Part shown: positions 13,197-22,114 of the stretch, in pieces | Layout of the letters: each line of letters opens with the position of its first letter | How positions within the stretch are numbered: the first letter of the stretch is position 1 | Origin: Betaproteobacteria bacterium | Lineage (GTDB): Bacteria; Pseudomonadota; Gammaproteobacteria; Burkholderiales; SHXO01 | Direction: 5' to 3' | Assembly (NCBI GenBank): GCA_009693245.1 | Contig: SHXO01000015.1 | Location: 1-41,509, forward strand | Length of the DNA: 41,509 nt | Program-made: the position numbers and the translations under genes | Notes under the pieces: model-generated | The model's input: only the letters and a program-made list of their open reading frames with translations | Told to the model about the DNA's origin: nothing | The model's database searches: none

Positions 13197-14291
13197 ATGA
13201 AACGCAGGTCATTTCTAAAGCAGGCGGCCACGGGCATGGCCGCGGGTGCGGTGGCGGCGCCCGCCATCGCCCAATCGGCGCCGAGCATTCATTGGCGCAT
13301 GGCCACCAGTTGGCCCAAGAGTCTAGACACGCTCTACGGCGGCGCCGAGTTGATATGCCGCCGTGTGGGCGAAATCACCGACGGCAAATTCCAGATCCGC
13401 CCTTTCGCGGCGGGGGAGATCGTGCCCGCGACCCAGGTATTGGATGCCATCCAGGCCGGCACCGTGGAAGTGGGGCACACGCCAACCTATTACTACTTCG
13501 GGAAAGATCCTGCCTTCTCCTTTGGAACCGCTGCCCCGTTCGGCATGAACCAGCGGCAGAATTTCGCCTGGTGGTACTTCGGGGGCGGGGCCGAGGCCAT
13601 GGCGCCCTTGCTCAAGGAATATGGATGCGTGGGATTTCCCGGCGGCGGAACGGGCTGCCAGATGGGCGGTTGGTTCCGCAAGGAGATCAAGACGATCGAT
13701 GATCTCAAAGGGCTCAAATTCCGCGTAGGCGGGATGGCTGGCTTGGCGCTCACCAAGTTAGGTGTGGTGCCGCAGATGATTGCCGGCTCCGACGTCTATC
13801 CCGCCTTGGAGAAAGGCACCATCGATGCCGCCGAATGGGTAGGGCCCTACGACGATGAGAAGCTCGGCTTCAACAAAGTGGCGAAGTATTACTACTACCC
13901 AGGTTGGTGGGAAGCGGGGCCCATGGGCATGACGCTCATCAACGATAAGAAATGGGCCGAACTGCCCAAGGCCTATCAATCCGCGCTCATGACTGCTAGC
14001 GCGGAAGCGTGCCATTGGATGGTGGCCAAGTACGACGCGCAAAACCCGCCGGCGCTACGCCGTCTCGTGGGGTCGGGTACCATTTTGAAACCTTTTCCAA
14101 AGTCCGTGATGGAAGCGTGCGAGAGAGCCGTCTTCGAGCTCTACGACGAATTGATGGTGAAGAGCGCACACTGGAAGCGCATCTATCCAGGCTGGAAGAA
14201 ATTCCGCGACGACCAGTTCCTATGGTTCCGGGTCGCGGAGACCACCTACGACAATTATGCCTTCACTTCAAAAATCGGAATGGGAAAGTAA
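13197..14291 (+). CDS. TRAP transporter substrate-binding protein, DctP family (copy 1)
   Basis: The 364-residue protein has a Tat signal peptide (MKRRSFLKQA, twin arginine at 3-4, cleavage near AIAQS at about 27) and a DctP/TakP-type periplasmic binding domain: WRMATSWPKSLDTLY, the IRPFAAGEIVPATQVLDAIQ segment, GKDPAFSFGTAAPFGMN and EKGTIDAAEWVGPYDDEKLGF. TakP relatives bind alpha-keto or other organic acids; the ligand here is not known. A GGGAGGAG site precedes the ATG. A close paralog follows 139 bases later. The matching membrane genes dctQ and dctM converge on this pair from the other strand. Confidence 0.94.
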   Translation: MKRRSFLKQAATGMAAGAVAAPAIAQSAPSIHWRMATSWPKSLDTLYGGAELICRRVGEITDGKFQIRPFAAGEIVPATQVLDAIQAGTVEVGHTPTYYYFGKDPAFSFGTAAPFGMNQRQNFAWWYFGGGAEAMAPLLKEYGCVGFPGGGTGCQMGGWFRKEIKTIDDLKGLKFRVGGMAGLALTKLGVVPQMIAGSDVYPALEKGTIDAAEWVGPYDDEKLGFNKVAKYYYYPGWWEAGPMGMTLINDKKWAELPKAYQSALMTASAEACHWMVAKYDAQNPPALRRLVGSGTILKPFPKSVMEACERAVFELYDELMVKSAHWKRIYPGWKKFRDDQFLWFRVAETTYDNYAFTSKIGMGK

Positions 14292-14327
14292 GCGGATTGC
14301 GAGCGTGCAGCGTTAGCTTCCGCCAAG

Positions 14328-14353
14328 CCGCCCCGGCATGAAAACCGGGGCGG
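14328..14353 (+). terminator. Hairpin between the two dctP copies
   Basis: CCGCCCCGG and CCGGGGCGG form a perfect 9-bp stem around CATGAAAA. There is no T-run, so it is more likely an RNA-stability or attenuation hairpin between the two binding-protein genes than a full terminator. Confidence 0.45.
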
Positions 14354-14430
14354 GTATGAGCATCTCAAAACAACCGGCCGCGCGTTCCGTGCGCATCGCC
14401 GTACCATAGACGTTCAACAAAAGGAAAACC

Positions 14431-15525
14431 ATGAAACGCAGATCGTTTTTGAAGCAGGCCGCGGTGGGTGTCGCGGCCGGTGCCGTTGCGGCACCGGCCA
14501 GCGCGCAATCCAATCCAAGCATCAACTGGCGCATGGCCACGAGCTGGCCGAAGAGCTTGGACACCATGTATGGTACCGCCGACCACCTGTGCAAGAGAGT
14601 CGCCGAGTTAACCGACGGCAAGTTCCAGATCCGTCCCTTCGCCGCCGGCGAAATCGTGCCAGCGGCCCAGGTGCTCGACGCGATTCAAGCGGGCACCGTC
14701 GAGATCGGCCACACGGCGCCGACCTATTACTTCGGCAAGGACCCGGCCTTTGCCTTTGGCACCACAGTGCCCTTCGGCATGAATGCACGCCAGAACTATG
14801 CTTGGTGGCACTACGGCGGAGGCGCGGAAGCCATGGCACCCTTGTTCAAGGAGTATGGCGTCATCGCCATTCCCGCCGGCAATACGGGCGCTCAAATGGG
14901 GGGCTGGTTCCGCAAGGAGATCAAAACCCTTGAAGACTTCAAGGGACTCAAATTCCGCATCGCCGGAATTGCCGGGCTGATCATTGCCAAGATCGGCGGT
15001 GTGCCGCAGATGATCGGCGGACCGGACATCTATCCCGCGCTGGAGAAAGGCACCATCGATGCCGCCGAATGGGTGGGGCCCTACGACGACGAGAAACTCG
15101 GATTCAACAAAGTCGCCAAGCACTATTACTACCCAGGTTGGTGGGAGGGCGGTCCCATGCTCGCGGCCTTGATCAACGAAAAGAAATGGAATGAATTGCC
15201 CAAGGCATACCAGGCCGCCATCACCGTGTCCTGCGCCGAAGGCTATGCATCGATGCCGGCCAGGTACGACGCGTTGAATCCGGGTGCTCTGCGCAGGCTG
15301 GTGGCCAGTGGCACCAAGTTGAGCGCCTTCCCCAAGCCCGTTATCGAGGCTTGCGAAAAGGCCGCTTACGAGGTCTACGAGGAACTAGGTGCCAAGAGCG
15401 CCCATTGGAAACGCATCTATCCCGCGTGGAAAAAATTCCGCGACGACGAGTTCCTCTGGTACCGGGTTGCGGACTACGCTTACGACAACTACGCCTTCAA
15501 CTCCAAGATCGGCGCGGGTAAGTAG
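14431..15525 (+). CDS. TRAP transporter substrate-binding protein, DctP family (copy 2)
   Basis: This 364-residue paralog of the preceding gene has the same Tat leader (MKRRSFLKQAAVG, cleavage near ASAQS) and the same DctP/TakP layout; by eye well over two thirds of positions are identical, with equal length and no gaps except around GHTAPTYYFGK. Differences cluster in ligand-lobe segments (for example AIPAGNTGAQM versus GFPGGGTGCQM, and IAGIAGLIIAKIGGVPQ versus VGGMAGLALTKLGVVPQ), so the two may bind different acids. An AAAGGAAA-like site precedes the ATG. A strong hairpin ends the transcript. Confidence 0.94.
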   Translation: MKRRSFLKQAAVGVAAGAVAAPASAQSNPSINWRMATSWPKSLDTMYGTADHLCKRVAELTDGKFQIRPFAAGEIVPAAQVLDAIQAGTVEIGHTAPTYYFGKDPAFAFGTTVPFGMNARQNYAWWHYGGGAEAMAPLFKEYGVIAIPAGNTGAQMGGWFRKEIKTLEDFKGLKFRIAGIAGLIIAKIGGVPQMIGGPDIYPALEKGTIDAAEWVGPYDDEKLGFNKVAKHYYYPGWWEGGPMLAALINEKKWNELPKAYQAAITVSCAEGYASMPARYDALNPGALRRLVASGTKLSAFPKPVIEACEKAAYEVYEELGAKSAHWKRIYPAWKKFRDDEFLWYRVADYAYDNYAFNSKIGAGK

Positions 15526-15536
15526 TCTTTAGAGAA

Positions 15537-15575
15537 AGCAAACGGCCCGTCCATGACATGGACGGGCCGTTTGCT
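15537..15575. terminator. Strong hairpin between convergent dctP2 and dctM
   Basis: A long, nearly uninterrupted palindrome runs AGCAAACGGCCCGTCCATG, a central A, then its complement. With a minimal loop the stem is about 17 bp. It lies 12 bases after the dctP2 stop and about 34 bases before the dctM stop, so it can serve both directions; the T-rich flank is short. Confidence 0.85.
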
Positions 15576-15608: not shown

Positions 15609-17111
15609 CTATTTCGGGGCCGCGGGTGCGTCCTTACTGGGTCCCCCAAAGTCTGGGGCTGCCTCTTCTTGTCCTGGGGAGGCGTTACCGGAATCCGAGT
15701 CCGGAATCACGATCTCGACTTTGGAGGCATCCACCTTGGTGCGGTCCAAGTTAGCGGTCACCAATTGCGGGAAAACGATGACGATGGTGACCATGATAAT
15801 TTGGATGATCACGAAGGGGACGGCGCCCCAATAGATCTGTCCCGTTGTGATGGGCGCCATTCGCAAGTTCGTGATCTTGTCGATGTATTCCTTGGCGGGC
15901 GCCACGCTGCGCAGATAGAACAACGCAAAGCCGAAGGGCGGATGCATGAAGGAGGTCTGCATGTTGACTCCGAGCAACACGCCAAACCAGATCAGATCGA
16001 TTCCCAACTTGTCCGCAACGGGGGCTAGCAGCGGCACGATGATGAAGGCCAGCTCGAAGAAATCCAAGAAGAAGGCGAGCAGGAATACCATGACATTGAC
16101 GACGATCAGGAAACCCAATTGGCCGCCTGGGAGACCCGTCAGCAAATGCTCTACCCATAGATCGCCGCTGACCCCACGAAAGGTCAGACCGAAGACCGTG
16201 GCCCCCACCAGAATGAAAATCACGAAGGAGGAAAGCTTAGCGGTGGTGTTCAACGCTTGCTTCAGTAGCGACCAGCTCAAGCGCCGGTTCATCATGGCAA
16301 GTATGACGGCGCCCGTGGCGCCCATGGCACCGCCTTCCGTGGGCGTGGCAACCCCGAGGAAGATGGTGCCCAGCACCAGGAAAATGAGTCCCAAGGGTGG
16401 AACCAGCACCACCAGCACGCGGGTTAGCAGCTTGGTCCCGCGAAGCGTGCGTGCCTCGGGGGGAAGTGCCGGCCCGGACTTGGGGTCGAGCATGGTCTTG
16501 CCGAACACGTACAGCGTGTAGAGTCCCGTCAGTACCAAACCGGGCAATATGGCCCCTGCGTACATATCGCCCACGGAACGTCCCAACTGGTCCGCCAAGA
16601 CAATCAACACCAGGGAGGGCGGAATGATTTGCGCGAGGGTGCCCGAAGCCGCGATCACGCCACTAGCCAGACGCCGGTCGTAGCCGTAGCGCAACATGAT
16701 GGGCAGCGAAATGAGGCCCATGGATATGACCGAGGCCGCCACCACACCGGTGGTTGCCGCTAGAAGTGCGCCCACGAAAATCACCGCGTAGGCCAATCCG
16801 CCGCGTACTGGACCGAACAACTGCCCGATGGTGTCGAGCAGATCCTCCGCCATGCCGCTGCGTTCGAGAATCAATCCCATGAAAGTGAAGAAGGGAATGG
16901 CGAGCAAGGTATCGTTCGCCATGATGCCGAAGATGCGTTCGGGCAAAGCCTGGTATAGCTCGGCGCTTAAGAGCCTCAATTCGATGCCCACTAGCCCGAA
17001 GGTCAAGCCGAGCGCGCCCAAGGCGAAGGCCACGGGGTATCCCAGTAGCAGAAATACCACCAACACCATGAACATCAGCGGCGCCAGATTGTTGGTGATG
17101 AATTGGATCAT
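15609..17111 (-). CDS. dctM: TRAP transporter large permease, DctM family
   Basis: The 500-residue protein has about 12 to 13 membrane helices and typical DctM sequence: FLLLGYPVAFALGALGL, LAIPFFTFMGLILERSGMAEDLLD, the ASGTLAQIIPPSLVLIVLADQ motif and GGAMGATGAVILA. It forms the sodium-driven transport subunit that takes ligand from a DctP binding protein. The C-terminus carries a hydrophilic tail of about 45 residues beyond the last helix, rich in Asp, Ser, Pro and Ala, which is unusual for DctM. The start overlaps the dctQ stop (ATGA), so the genes are coupled with dctQ first. Confidence 0.95.
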   Translation of the reverse strand: MIQFITNNLAPLMFMVLVVFLLLGYPVAFALGALGLTFGLVGIELRLLSAELYQALPERIFGIMANDTLLAIPFFTFMGLILERSGMAEDLLDTIGQLFGPVRGGLAYAVIFVGALLAATTGVVAASVISMGLISLPIMLRYGYDRRLASGVIAASGTLAQIIPPSLVLIVLADQLGRSVGDMYAGAILPGLVLTGLYTLYVFGKTMLDPKSGPALPPEARTLRGTKLLTRVLVVLVPPLGLIFLVLGTIFLGVATPTEGGAMGATGAVILAMMNRRLSWSLLKQALNTTAKLSSFVIFILVGATVFGLTFRGVSGDLWVEHLLTGLPGGQLGFLIVVNVMVFLLAFFLDFFELAFIIVPLLAPVADKLGIDLIWFGVLLGVNMQTSFMHPPFGFALFYLRSVAPAKEYIDKITNLRMAPITTGQIYWGAVPFVIIQIIMVTIVIVFPQLVTANLDRTKVDASKVEIVIPDSDSGNASPGQEEAAPDFGGPSKDAPAAPK

Positions 17112-17674
17112 TTCGCATCCCCTTCCAGGACCGGGGCGCCGTGAAAGGAGTGCTTCTCCGAAGGATCCGGAATCAGCCCCTGGAGGAAGGCGATGCGCTT
17201 GATAAGTTCGGAAAGCGCTTGCAGAGTCAGCAAGAAGAATCCGGCGGGAATCATGAGCCGCGCTGGCCAGCGTATGAGCCCGCCCGCGTTCGCTGACGTC
17301 TCGCCGCTATTCCAGGCGTTCATGAAGAGCGGCCAGGAGGACCACATGAGATACAAGGTCACGGGCAACAGAAACACCACCGTGCCGAAAATATCGATCC
17401 AGGTCTGGGTGCTCCGCGAGAAACGGCTGGCCACGACATCGATGCGAATGTGCTCGTTATGCAAAAGCGTGTAGCCCGAGCATAACAGGAACACCATGGC
17501 GAACAAGTACCACTGCAACTCCAGCCAAGCATTGGAACTGATGTTCAACGCGTAACGCGACATGGCATTGAAAGAGCTCACCAGCACGCAAGCCAGTACC
17601 AGCCACATTATGGTGCGGCCAACCTTTTCGTTGAGCGCGTCGATGGCGCGCGATATGAATAACAGCATGTTCAT
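17108..17674 (-). CDS. dctQ: TRAP transporter small permease, DctQ family
   Basis: The 188-residue product has four membrane helices and the DctQ features NAWLELQWYLFAMVFLLCSGYTL and EHIRIDVVASRFS. It pairs with DctM to make the membrane part of a TRAP importer. The start is taken at MNMLLFISR (17674); MLLFISR two codons later is also possible. About 128 bases separate it from the divergently oriented frame of the LuxR/cNMP regulator, and the two genes probably share a control region. Confidence 0.92.
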   Translation of the reverse strand: MNMLLFISRAIDALNEKVGRTIMWLVLACVLVSSFNAMSRYALNISSNAWLELQWYLFAMVFLLCSGYTLLHNEHIRIDVVASRFSRSTQTWIDIFGTVVFLLPVTLYLMWSSWPLFMNAWNSGETSANAGGLIRWPARLMIPAGFFLLTLQALSELIKRIAFLQGLIPDPSEKHSFHGAPVLEGDAK

Positions 17675-17883
17675 GTTGGGTCCCTAGTTATCGTTCTAAG
17701 ATCGCTAGCCATCCCTTGGCCAGCGCCGGGCTGGGATTGTTCTGCCTGCGCCCGTGAAGACTCCCCATGGCGCGGCGGCGGATTGTCGCATGATCCGCCG
17801 CCTTGTATACCATTGGGTGTATTTTCTTCCGGTCCCGTGAAGTTATGGTAACGGTATTGTTCACCCGGCAACGGAGAAGCACC

Positions 17884-18627
17884 ATGGGAAATCTTGACCA
17901 GCGAAGCGGCGGGCGAGCCCCAGCCACGGCTGCCAAGGCATCCGTCCTCGCGCGCGGACCAGCAATGGTAGCGAAATCCCGCCGCCATGATAGGATGCCC
18001 CCGGCTCAACTCGAACAACAATCGATGCCCTCGCCCATAACGGCCGTGGAGGAGTACGGCCTGACCGCCTCCGAGAAAGGGGTACTGGACTTGGCAGCCC
18101 GCGGCTACCAAAACTCCGAGATCGCCCAGCGCCGCCACGTGAGCGTCGGTACGGTGAAAGCGCAGATGCACAGCATCTTCGAGAAGCTGGGTACGCGCAA
18201 CCGCTTCGAAGCGTCTCTGCTGTACCGCATCGCGCTGAGCGTGGATCTGGACGAGCAACGCCGCGCCGAGGAAGGCGAGTTCGATTTCAGCTGGCTCAAC
18301 CAGGTAGCGCTCACCATGGAGCGCTGGCCCAAGTGGCATGTGCTGTTTCAGCAGGGCGAACCAGGCGAGAAGCTCTACTACATCACCCAAGGGAACATTC
18401 GCCTGAAGGAAAAAAAGAACGTCATCATGGGGCCGCGCGATCTGTTCGGCGAGATCGCGGTGTTCACCCCTGGGCACCGCCTAACCTTCACCGCCATTTG
18501 CGAGACCGATGTGAGAGTGCTCACCATGACTCGCGAACAAGTGCGCCGCTGCTACCTGGTATATCCGCAGTTCGCCATCTACATCCTGTTCAGCATCATT
18601 CGGCGGCTCATGGCGGACCGCACCTGA
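17884..18627 (+). CDS. Regulator with LuxR-type HTH followed by a cyclic-nucleotide-binding domain
   Basis: The 247-residue protein has a low-complexity basic N-terminus (1-55), a LuxR/GerE-type helix-turn-helix (about 58-112: LTASEKGVLDLAARGYQNSE, then VGTVKAQMHSIFEKLGTRNR), a linker, and a cyclic-nucleotide-binding-like domain (about 145-240: FQQGEPGEKLYYITQGNIRL and GPRDLFGEIAVFTPG). The beta-barrel has the usual FGEIA but lacks the Arg-Ser pair of cAMP-binding CRP, so its ligand may not be cAMP. CRP/FNR proteins have the sensor first and a winged HTH last; here the order and the HTH class differ. The start ATG at 17884 follows GGAGAAG; the frame is open upstream to 17803. It diverges from the TRAP dctQ gene, which it may control. 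Confidence 0.82.
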   Translation: MGNLDQRSGGRAPATAAKASVLARGPAMVAKSRRHDRMPPAQLEQQSMPSPITAVEEYGLTASEKGVLDLAARGYQNSEIAQRRHVSVGTVKAQMHSIFEKLGTRNRFEASLLYRIALSVDLDEQRRAEEGEFDFSWLNQVALTMERWPKWHVLFQQGEPGEKLYYITQGNIRLKEKKNVIMGPRDLFGEIAVFTPGHRLTFTAICETDVRVLTMTREQVRRCYLVYPQFAIYILFSIIRRLMADRT

Positions 18628-18675
18628 AAAGTTGAGTACACTTCCTTCCCCTCGATTTCCGCGAAGGAAGTGACC

Positions 18676-19134
18676 ATGACGGCTACCACTGCGAAGCGCT
18701 CGGCATCCGGATACGATCTCAGCCCGGTCAGCGGCAGGGAGCGCGACGAGCTTGCGCGCAAACTCACGCCCGAGGAACGCTACATCTTGCTGGATCACGG
18801 TACCGAGCGGCCCTTCTGCGGAATCTTGCTCAACCAAAAGCAAGACGGCGTCTATGCCTGCAAACTGTGCGGGCTACCTTTGTTCCAATCGGGATCCAAG
18901 TTCGAGTCCCACTCGGGGTGGCCCAGCTTCTACGAACCTTTCGATGCGGAGCATATCCGCGAGATCCGCGATACCAGCCATGGCATGGTCCGCACCGAAA
19001 TTCGGTGCGCGCGCTGCGACGGGCATCTCGGCCACGTATTCCCCGATGGTCCTCCGACGACCCACCAGCGCTACTGTTTGAATTCCGCGTCCATGGACTT
19101 CTTTGTCGAAGGCACGCAACCCGCCGCCGGCTAA
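18676..19134 (+). CDS. msrB: Peptide-methionine (R)-S-oxide reductase
   Basis: MsrB reduces the R form of methionine sulfoxide in proteins. The 152-residue product has both zinc-binding CxxC pairs (C62/C65 in CKLC, C111/C114 in CARC), the signature SHSGWPSFYEPF, GHLGHVFPDGPPTTHQRYC with catalytic C134, and LNSASMDF. All expected residues are present. A resolving cysteine may be C48. The ATG at 18676 with GAAGGAAG upstream is preferred to the GTG two codons earlier. The gene ends nine bases before the degraded putA. Confidence 0.96.
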   Translation: MTATTAKRSASGYDLSPVSGRERDELARKLTPEERYILLDHGTERPFCGILLNQKQDGVYACKLCGLPLFQSGSKFESHSGWPSFYEPFDAEHIREIRDTSHGMVRTEIRCARCDGHLGHVFPDGPPTTHQRYCLNSASMDFFVEGTQPAAG

Positions 19135-19143
19135 CCTCAAAAC

Positions 19144-22114
19144 ATGGCTGGCCCGCTATCGCGCCTTCCCTACCCATACCGGAACGAGCACGCCGTCGTC
19201 ACCGGCTTACTGGCCGGCCTTGGCGGCTACATTGATTGGACTTCGGTGGCATCCCAGGCGAAGCCCTGGGTGCAAGGGGTGCGGGAGCACCCGGCGCCGT
19301 TCTGGGTGTTGGAGTCCCTGCTAAAGGAATACCCCATCTCCAGCGCGGAAGGGCTGGCGTTGATGCGCTTGTCCGAAGCGCTGCTACGAGTGCCCGACGC
19401 GGAAACCGCCATGTTGCTTACAGCGGACCAATTGCGCGGCGCGGATTTCAAGGATGGATCGCAAAGCGTGCTGGCCAGCCTATCTTCGGCCGCCATCGCG
19501 TTATCGAATACCCTACTTCCAGATGCTGAACACCCCGGCATGCTGCAACGCCTGGGCGCCCAGACTGTTGTGGCCGCCGCCGTGCGCGGCATTCAACTGC
19601 TAGGCAGACAATTCGTATTGGGCCGCGATATGAGCGAAGCGTTGGCCCACGCGGATGCGCAGCGCGGCCGGTTTCCCCCGCCGCTATTCAGTTTCGACAT
19701 GCTGGGCGAGGGGGCTCGCACGGAGCAAGATGCGCGGTGCTACTTTGCGTCTTATCGGTCGGCGATCGCGGCCATAGCCGCGCACGGCACCCACGGCGTG
19801 CTGGACGAAAATGACGGCATCTCCATCAAACTTTCCGCCTTATTCTCGCGTTACGAGGCCGCCCATCATGGCCGTGTGATGGCAGAACTGCTGCCTAGCG
19901 TGGTGGTGCTGGCGGATGCGGCGGCCGCCGCGAACATCAATCTCACCATGGATGCCGAAGAGAGCGACCGGCTAGAGCTCTCCCTGGATGTGCTGGAGGC
20001 CGTGGCGCGTCATGCCGCGCAAGAACATCCCCATTGGCGCGGCCTGGGCCTGGCCGTGCAAGCCTATCAAACACGCGCGCTGGACGTCGTGGAGGAGGTG
20101 GCACGGCTAGCGCGCAAACACGCGCCTGGTGAAGGGCGCCTATTGGGACGGCGAAGTCAAACGCGCCCAGGAACTTGGGCTGGAGAGCTATCCCGTCTTT
20201 ACGCATAAGCACCACACCGATGTGGCTTATCTTGCGTGCGCACGTGCGTTGATGCTGGAAAAAGACGGCATCTATCCGCAGTTCGCCACGCATAACGCGG
20301 GAACCATCGCCGCCATTCTGCAAATCTCCCGCACGCTGAAAGCCCCTTTCGAGATGCAACGCCTGCACGGCATGGGCGAAGGAATCTATCGCGAAGTGCT
20401 GCATCACGAACCCGGTCTGCCGCTTCGCATCTATGCGCCCGTGGGCGAGCACCGCGATCTGCTCGCTTATTTGGTGCGCCGCTTGTTGGAGAACGACGCC
20501 AACTCGTCCTTCGTGCACCAGCTCGCGGACGATGCGCTTGACGCCGGGGCACTGCTCGCCTCCCCGCTACGCGCCGCCACCACGCCAGGGCAAATTCTGC
20601 CGCGCCATCTATATTCGGACCGCGCAAACTCCAGGGGATTCGACTTGACCTGTATGGAGCACCGCCAGCCGTTGCTCGATGCGCTGTCCGCGGTAGAGGT
20701 ACCCCGTATAGCGATGAGCACGCCCGAAGACGCGCTTACCGCCATGCACTCGTTGCATGCCGCATGGGCGCCATGGAACGCCACCGCGCTGTAGGTTCGC
20801 ACCGGTGTACTAAACCGGGCGGCGGATGAGCTCGAAAAGAGATTCGACCGCTTCGCGGCACTGCTGGTTAAGGAAGGGCGCAAGACCTTACCCGACGCCC
20901 TCTCCGAAGTACGCGAGGCGGTGGACTTTTGCCGCTATTACGCAGGTCTTGCCCTGCGGCAACTCAAGCCCGTGGCACTGCCAGGTCCCACGGGAGAGAG
21001 CAACGAATTGCGGTTGCGTGGCCGAGGGGTTTTCGTGTGCATTTCGCCGTGGAATTTTCCACTAGCCATCTTCGCCGGACAGGTGGTGGCAGCGCTGGTG
21101 GCGGGGAACACCGTGGCGGCCAAGCCAGCGGAGCAAACGCCCGCGGTCGCGAGCGCCTTTGTCGCGCTCCTGCACGAAGTAGGTATCCCGCAAGATGCGT
21201 TGATCTTGGTGCACGGCGCGGGCGATGTCGTGGGCGCCGTGTTGGTCGCCCATGAGCACTGCGCGGGCGTGTGATTCACGGGATCGGTGCAAGTGGCCAG
21301 ACAGATTCAGCGCGCGCTGGCCGCCAAGACTGGTCCCATCGTTCCACTCATCGCCGAAACGGGGGGCCTCAACGCCATGATCGTGGATTCCACCGCGTTG
21401 CCCGAGCAGGTGGTGGACGCGGTGCTGCAATCGGCCTTCCGTTCCGCCGGCCAGCGCTGCTCGGCGCTGCGCTTGCTGTGCCTGCACGAAAGCGTTGCGG
21501 ATGCGATGACCACCATGCTCGCCGGTGCCATGCAACAACTCGTGGTGGGCGATCCGCGCGAATGGTCCACGGACGTGGGCCCGGTCATCGATGGCGAGGC
21601 ACACGCGAATTTGCGAGGCCATGTAGAGCGCCTGCAACGCGAATCCCGTTTAGCGGGCAGCACACCCATGGCGGAAGCCCTCGGCACCACCCATATCATG
21701 CCCGTGGCCTTCGAAATCGCGCGAGTGGCGGATTTGAAGGAGGAGATTTTCGGCCCCGTGCTGCATATCGTTCGCTGGCGCGGTGCCATCGATGAATTGA
21801 TCGATGAAATCAATGAACTGGGATATGGGCTCACGCTGGGCATCCAAACCCGAATCGATAGCCGCGCCCGGTACATCGCACGCAGAATCCGCGCGGGAAA
21901 CGTCTACGTCAACCGCAACATGACCGGCGCGGTGGTGGGCGTGCAACCCTTCGGCGGCGAGGGCTTGAGCGGCACCGGCCCCAAGGGCGGCGGGCCGCAC
22001 TATCTACCGCGCTTTTGCGCCGAGCAAACGCTCACCATCAATACCGCGGCGGCCGGGGGCAACGTGGCGCTGCTGGCCGGAACGGCAGCGCCCCCTAAAT
22101 CCGCTTGGCGATGA
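19144..22114 (+). pseudogene. putA: Broken putA (proline dehydrogenase / P5C dehydrogenase)
   Basis: PutA oxidises proline to glutamate in two steps. The stretch encodes a nearly complete short-type PutA without the N-terminal ribbon-helix-helix DNA-binding region. The first part (19144-~20118) covers the N-terminal domain and half of the FAD barrel. Near 20119 the frame shifts: after LARKH the conserved RLVKGAYWDGEVKRA resumes in another frame, and about six conserved residues are missing, so roughly 17 bases were probably lost. The rest is in one frame but has TAG at 20792-20794 (WNATAL-stop-VRTGVLNRAA) and TGA at 21272-21274 (CAGV-stop-FTGS). The aldehyde dehydrogenase part still has IAETGGLNAMIVD and the catalytic cysteine in SAGQRCSALR. 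Sequence between lesions is well conserved, so inactivation looks recent. The end overlaps the EVE gene on the other strand by 20 bases. Confidence 0.9.

Follow-up and report, generated by a model that had tools for sequence, protein, structure and literature searches.

A derived orphan member of the cyclase-linked GerE-cNMP regulator family, encoded divergently from TRAP transporter genes

CRP/FNR regulators such as CRP and GlxR contain a cNMP barrel and a helix that follows it, and in CRP the sensor comes first and a winged helix last. NarL/FixJ regulators bind DNA through a GerE helix-turn-helix (HTH), and in quorum-sensing LuxR proteins the GerE domain is preceded by an autoinducer-binding domain. 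Two further systems are also close. Clusters of a CHASE2-adenylate cyclase with FecR and TPR proteins are known in Campylobacterota, according to the available part of PMC9239204, and the Burkholderia BiofilmReg operon consists, in the available part of PMC5192318, of a response regulator, a FecR/LysM protein and a CHASE2 histidine kinase. In this study, a regulator gene at 17884-18627 (+) of a 41,509-nucleotide stretch of DNA, analysed as a whole and called the window below, was compared with these systems. Its 247-residue product shares the cNMP barrel and the following helix with CRP/FNR proteins, GlxR being the best match among solved structures, but the GerE domain stands first and nothing of HTH type follows the barrel. 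It also differs from the cAMP-binding members of that family in having no cassette arginine, the position being held by Leu200 with R199 adjacent. With NarL/FixJ regulators it shares the GerE HTH, and most of its relatives have a receiver-like stretch before GerE as well; what sets the family apart is its C-terminal cNMP barrel, and in the window copy the receiver is missing. Unlike in quorum-sensing LuxR proteins, no autoinducer-binding domain precedes its GerE domain.

The reading frame is intact, and its ATG is preceded by GGAG (17873-17876) as ribosome-binding site; read from stop to stop, the frame begins at 17794. A preliminary description made from the sequence alone had placed a GerE-type HTH first and a cNMP-like barrel last, and a Pfam search found both domains in that order. 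The GerE (LuxR-type) HTH covers residues 60-110 (18061-18213, +; PF00196, E 1.1e-10, 41.4 bits against a cut-off of 23.5) and the cNMP_binding barrel residues 147-224 (18322-18555, +; PF00027, E 2.1e-14, 53.7 bits against 27.5), so that both exceed the curated cut-offs. Neither Pfam nor an AlphaFold2 model places an HTH after the barrel. The HTH and the barrel are confident in this model, with block-mean pLDDT of 79-94 over residues 61-110 and 81-92 over residues 141-220, whereas the linker (residues 111-140) is middling at 56-68 and residues 1-53 are poor at below 50; the whole model has a mean pLDDT of 70.6 and a pTM of 0.47. The top Foldseek matches are cAMP-bound GlxR and mycobacterial CRP, over 126-133 aligned columns of 247, and by sequence GlxR aligns to residues 145-243. 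Ahead of GerE stand 59 residues, nearly all of them in the poorly modelled part. Pfam found no receiver domain before GerE, and an autoinducer-binding domain was not among the four Pfam matches down to E 1.

The same architecture occurs in other genomes. A GerE-cNMP profile, built from six rows with the window protein among them, matched this protein over both domains (E 3.3e-89, model positions 2-193). A search of 399 genomes of the order yielded at least 21 other full-length GerE-cNMP proteins in 14 other genomes, belonging to four families within the order; since at most eight candidates per genome were scored, this number is a lower bound. Two incomplete members add to these, a copy in G003 that a contig end truncates and a copy divided between two frames on contig C27 of the window's own genome. 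In an alignment scan, 10 of the best 80 among 162 relatives (L087-L096, from uncultured Betaproteobacteria, Burkholderiales and one Pseudomonadota MAG) matched over both GerE and barrel halves. A scan of genome contigs with a single protein gave 30 stretches that matched a pattern, with no relative among them. In samples of the class (369 genomes) and of the phylum (398 genomes), the matches at E 1e-22 or better that lie outside the own genome, in three and 18 genomes, respectively, are confined to the cNMP half; sampling at both levels is sparse, so members may exist elsewhere. Another 22 loci from the alignment scan were read by eye and set aside; several look like a cNMP barrel behind membrane helices, several like CRP-like proteins of the ordinary kind, and L135 like a GerE protein that has no barrel. 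The helix-barrel type is represented by short proteins at L097-L126, in which three membrane helices (by eye) precede a barrel similar to the one in GerE-cNMP proteins (for example L099 7776-8408 and L109 7776-8402); their hosts include Rhodospirillaceae, Bradyrhizobium and Rhodoferax.

Searches of openly licensed papers gave no description of the GerE-cNMP architecture, and none was found in the available parts of PMC4618731, PMC1858693, PMC2447327, PMC5498481, PMC9239204 and PMC5192318. The architecture, held to be unusual in the preliminary description, is unusual but not unique, as a family of uncultured Betaproteobacteria and Burkholderiales has it. As to the possibility raised there that it might be a known widespread family, a family does exist within the order, but a published description of it did not turn up.

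Most relatives are longer than the window protein. In 19 of the 21, between 139 and 438 residues lie ahead of the core, although most of these N-termini were taken from stop to stop, so that some residues may precede the true start. A profile built from 18 of them, leaving out G253C10_7491, matched solved response regulators with a best E of 3.5e-8 and NarL at 2.1e-6. Taken singly, eight of the 18 matched PF00072 at E 0.1 or better; the N-terminus of one relative (L176 12929-13507) aligned poorly. The window protein, G002C32 and G253C10_8693 have no receiver-like stretch, the latter two having short N-termini of 32 and 74 residues. Because of the profile and the single PF00072 matches, the family looks like NarL-type regulators to which a cNMP barrel has been added at the end.

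The neighbourhoods of the family were compared with those of two control sets. The 21 relatives occupy 17 loci; the fragment at a contig end (L039), the broken copy (L040), which has no cyclase, and the window, which has none either, were set aside before counting. With cyclase models that were built partly from the very loci counted, a class III cyclase was found in nine loci (L035, L036, L038, L167, L172, L174, L175, L176 and L178), a GGDEF gene in five (L037, L168, L169, L171 and L173) and neither type in three (L170, L177 and L179). Pfam confirmed 11 of these 14 cyclase loci, eight of class III (L035, L036, L038, L172, L174, L175, L176 and L178) and three of GGDEF type (L037, L168 and L171), and L167, as a class III locus, and L169 and L173, as GGDEF loci, were assigned by the models and by similarity. 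Because the five GGDEF loci form one clade and L035 and L167 are close, the counts do not represent independent events. The same models found neither cyclase type in 14 loci of dctM, the TRAP large permease gene (13 from related genomes and one from the own genome), in stretches of 7.9-12 kb as against 4.5-19 kb for the family. The second control comprised other cNMP proteins at 35 loci (L097-L128, L132, L180 and L181). Six of these loci had a cyclase gene, of class III in L099, L110 and L180 and of GGDEF type in L101, L102 and L126, so the background of cyclase neighbours is not nil. The usual neighbours of GerE-cNMP genes are cyclase genes, not TRAP genes. Two loci carry tandem GerE-cNMP gene pairs beside a class III cyclase (L036 5694-8103 and L172 7491-9505).

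At five of the 17 loci (L035, L036, L167, L174 and L175), the regulator gene runs up to, or close to, the beginning of a CHASE2-cyclase frame, after which comes a FecR-TPR gene. This combination of a CHASE2-class III cyclase with FecR-TPR resembles the Campylobacterota clusters, for which the available part of PMC9239204 describes a phosphodiesterase and does not mention a GerE-cNMP regulator. FecR and a CHASE2 sensor beside a receiver-type regulator are likewise shared with BiofilmReg. There, however, CHASE2 is part of a histidine kinase, the regulator combines a receiver with trans_reg_C, and neither a cyclase nor a cNMP barrel is described in the available part of PMC5192318. Compared with 14 of the 17 other loci, the window has no cyclase gene by either of two cyclase models. 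Its genome contains eight PF00211 matches, none of them on the window's contig, so cAMP may be present in the cell.

The preliminary description had also reported that the usual Arg-Ser contact to cyclic AMP is absent, and the alignment with the relatives agrees, yet there is an arginine nearby. In the window regulator the phosphate-binding cassette reads FGEIAVFTPGHRLTFTA (FGEIAVFTPGHRLT at residues 188-201; 18445-18486, +), with Gly189-Glu190 and Thr201 kept. Leu200 (codon 18481-18483) stands in a column, read by eye, in which all 21 other full-length relatives have Arg. The next residue is Thr in 20 relatives and Ala in one; pairs of the Arg-Thr and Arg-Ala type are usual in the cassettes of HCN channels and of protein kinase A. 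The broken paralogue on C27 also has Arg-Thr, and Leu occurs in the window protein only. R199, one residue before Leu200, raises the question whether the protein is a working cAMP effector after all, in which this arginine, placed in a shifted loop, would bind a cyclic nucleotide supplied by cyclases that are encoded elsewhere. Such an arrangement would fit the retained Gly-Glu and Thr, the PF00211 matches and the sequence alignment with GlxR, whose Arg sits nine residues after Glu, at the spacing of R199. On the other hand, the Leu200 position is Arg throughout the relatives and several of these have both arginines (HRRT), so R199 corresponds to the non-conserved one, and we regard a working effector of this kind as rather improbable. 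Judged from the alignment, the barrel has likely lost cyclic-nucleotide binding, which the adjacent R199 and the spacing of the GlxR arginine keep from being certain.

The regulator gene is divergent from dctQ (TRAP small permease, 17108-17674, −; PF04290) and dctM (15609-17111, −; PF06808), as gene coordinates and Pfam confirm, with 209 bases between dctQ and the regulator (17675-17883). Control of the TRAP uptake system by an unusual sensor had been proposed on the ground of this position. The divergent placement stands, but conservation does not support the proposal, as none of the 14 other dctM stretches fetched (7.9-12 kb; one in the own genome) contains a GerE-cNMP gene. This holds also for the closest dctM relatives (78% and 80% identity), found in G026 (C28) and G019; the L205 and L211 stretches are shortened by contig ends, and the one from G026 C31 ends short of the GerE-cNMP gene of that contig. 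The latter gene lies ~11 kb from one of the two dctM genes of G026 and beside a CHASE2-cyclase. Another type of GerE protein, with a receiver visible by eye, occurs in four of the 14 stretches (L201, L203, L205 and L207), which makes GerE-type control of such transporters plausible. In three of them the gene is upstream of dctQ on the same strand (L203 4525-5751, L201 7652-8461 and L205 3546-4367, with gaps of ~0.1, 0.4 and 1.5 kb, respectively). A dedicated regulator of the divergent operon, whose barrel would sense the transported substrate or a metabolite of it, could draw on these cases, on the G026 C31 gene and on the 209-base gap with the perfect inverted repeat described below. It is nevertheless unlikely in view of the dctM stretches, of the genes upstream of dctQ in L198, L199, L200 and L202, which differ from the window's, and of the cyclases that neighbour the family elsewhere. 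The link of the window regulator to TRAP is one of position only, and regulation of dctQM by it is possible. Farther along, two tandem dctP genes (13197-15525, 75.5% identical) are convergent with dctM, and a long perfect, terminator-like inverted repeat (15537-15575) lies between the dctP pair and dctM.

A candidate operator within the intergenic region is a perfect inverted repeat at 17774-17802, with 10-nt arms and a 9-nt spacer. Reduced to the inner 7 nt of each arm and the 9-nt spacer, its pattern occurs at one place in the genome, and an equally good perfect repeat (gap of 3-20) arose in 7 of 2000 dinucleotide shuffles of the region; similar perfect repeats, some of them terminator-like, are present elsewhere in the window. 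A search for inverted repeats with 8-nt arms in the upstream regions of seven further family genes, at six loci, gave one unrelated repeat, at L037, and none like that of the window. No sigma-70-like site came out of a promoter scan of 17600-18000, which showed two terminator-like sites that overlap at 17715-17735, against an expectation of 0.4. Downstream of the regulator follows msrB, encoding methionine-R-sulfoxide reductase (18670-19134, +; PF01641 and TIGR00357, both on 18676-19131), at a distance of 42 bases from its GTG start or 48 from an ATG at 18676, and the two genes are possibly co-transcribed. At 18639-18672 lies a perfect inverted repeat of 10 nt; the likely msrB ribosome-binding site falls in its second arm, and the RNA fold z-score is only -1.2. 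Beyond msrB, putA (proline dehydrogenase/aldehyde dehydrogenase, 19144-22114) is split over four frames, two of which have Pfam matches, and looks like a pseudogene or carries assembly errors.

At L040 5704-6551 and 6589-8097 (contig C27) lie the second GerE-cNMP copy of the genome, the one split over two frames, and after it a CHASE2 gene that has no cyclase domain. Upstream of the C27 copy, on the other strand, is an msrA-like gene (by eye); the window copy is followed by msrB. A tree of the HTH half groups the window protein and the C27 copy as sisters (support 95/87), the former on a branch of 1.14 as against 0.34. A tree of the full core, without the C27 paralogue, places the window protein at an open fork, and in a tree of the cNMP half, where the bootstrap had not settled, the two copies are not paired. 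One tree in three thus supports a shared duplication, which the two copies probably have in common. The long branch, the broken paralogue with its cyclase-less CHASE2 gene and the split putA nearby could suggest that the window copy is a decaying, functionless duplicate at a locus losing its cyclic-nucleotide module. Decay of this sort is quite improbable, however, for a gene whose frame is intact over 247 codons and has a ribosome-binding site, whose GC3 of 0.76 is in line with the neighbouring genes and whose HTH residues L68, G74, N77, A81, V91, L102, R107 and A110 agree with all 12 aligned relatives.

The window protein is a derived orphan paralogue of the cyclase-linked GerE-cNMP family, with no cyclase found in the window. 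We favour, by a modest degree, the reading that it is a DNA-binding regulator derived from this effector family whose barrel has lost the usual mode of cAMP binding. The domains, the family, its neighbourhoods and the Arg-to-Leu difference are seen in the sequences; what we infer beyond them concerns the ligand and the response to it, the DNA target, the direction of regulation and any part in TRAP control. The relatives, built as GerE-cNMP proteins mostly with a receiver-like stretch ahead, would be cyclic-nucleotide effector regulators. A neighbouring cyclase, either of class III, often CHASE2-linked and beside FecR-TPR, or of GGDEF type, would make the nucleotide, and its binding to the C-terminal barrel would alter DNA binding by the GerE dimer. 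The window copy, lacking the receiver-like domain, the cassette arginine and a cyclase beside it, probably retains DNA binding by way of GerE. It would not respond to cAMP in the canonical manner and may be ligand-independent or use another ligand. Its action would most likely be local, on its own promoter region with the repeat at 17774-17802 and perhaps on dctQM or msrB.

For the family, the evidence leans towards a new group of second-messenger regulators, in which a NarL-type protein with a C-terminal cNMP barrel would be the direct output of adjacent cyclases, that is CHASE2- or AAA-linked class III enzymes or diguanylate cyclases, and the window copy would be a standalone variant that has lost ligand binding. 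The family suggests that CHASE2-cyclase/FecR modules have an output of their own; their downstream effector is unnamed in the available parts of the cited descriptions. It also offers the testable idea that cAMP, or c-di-GMP, gates a GerE DNA-binding domain from its C-terminal side, for which the window copy provides a natural loss-of-Arg comparison.
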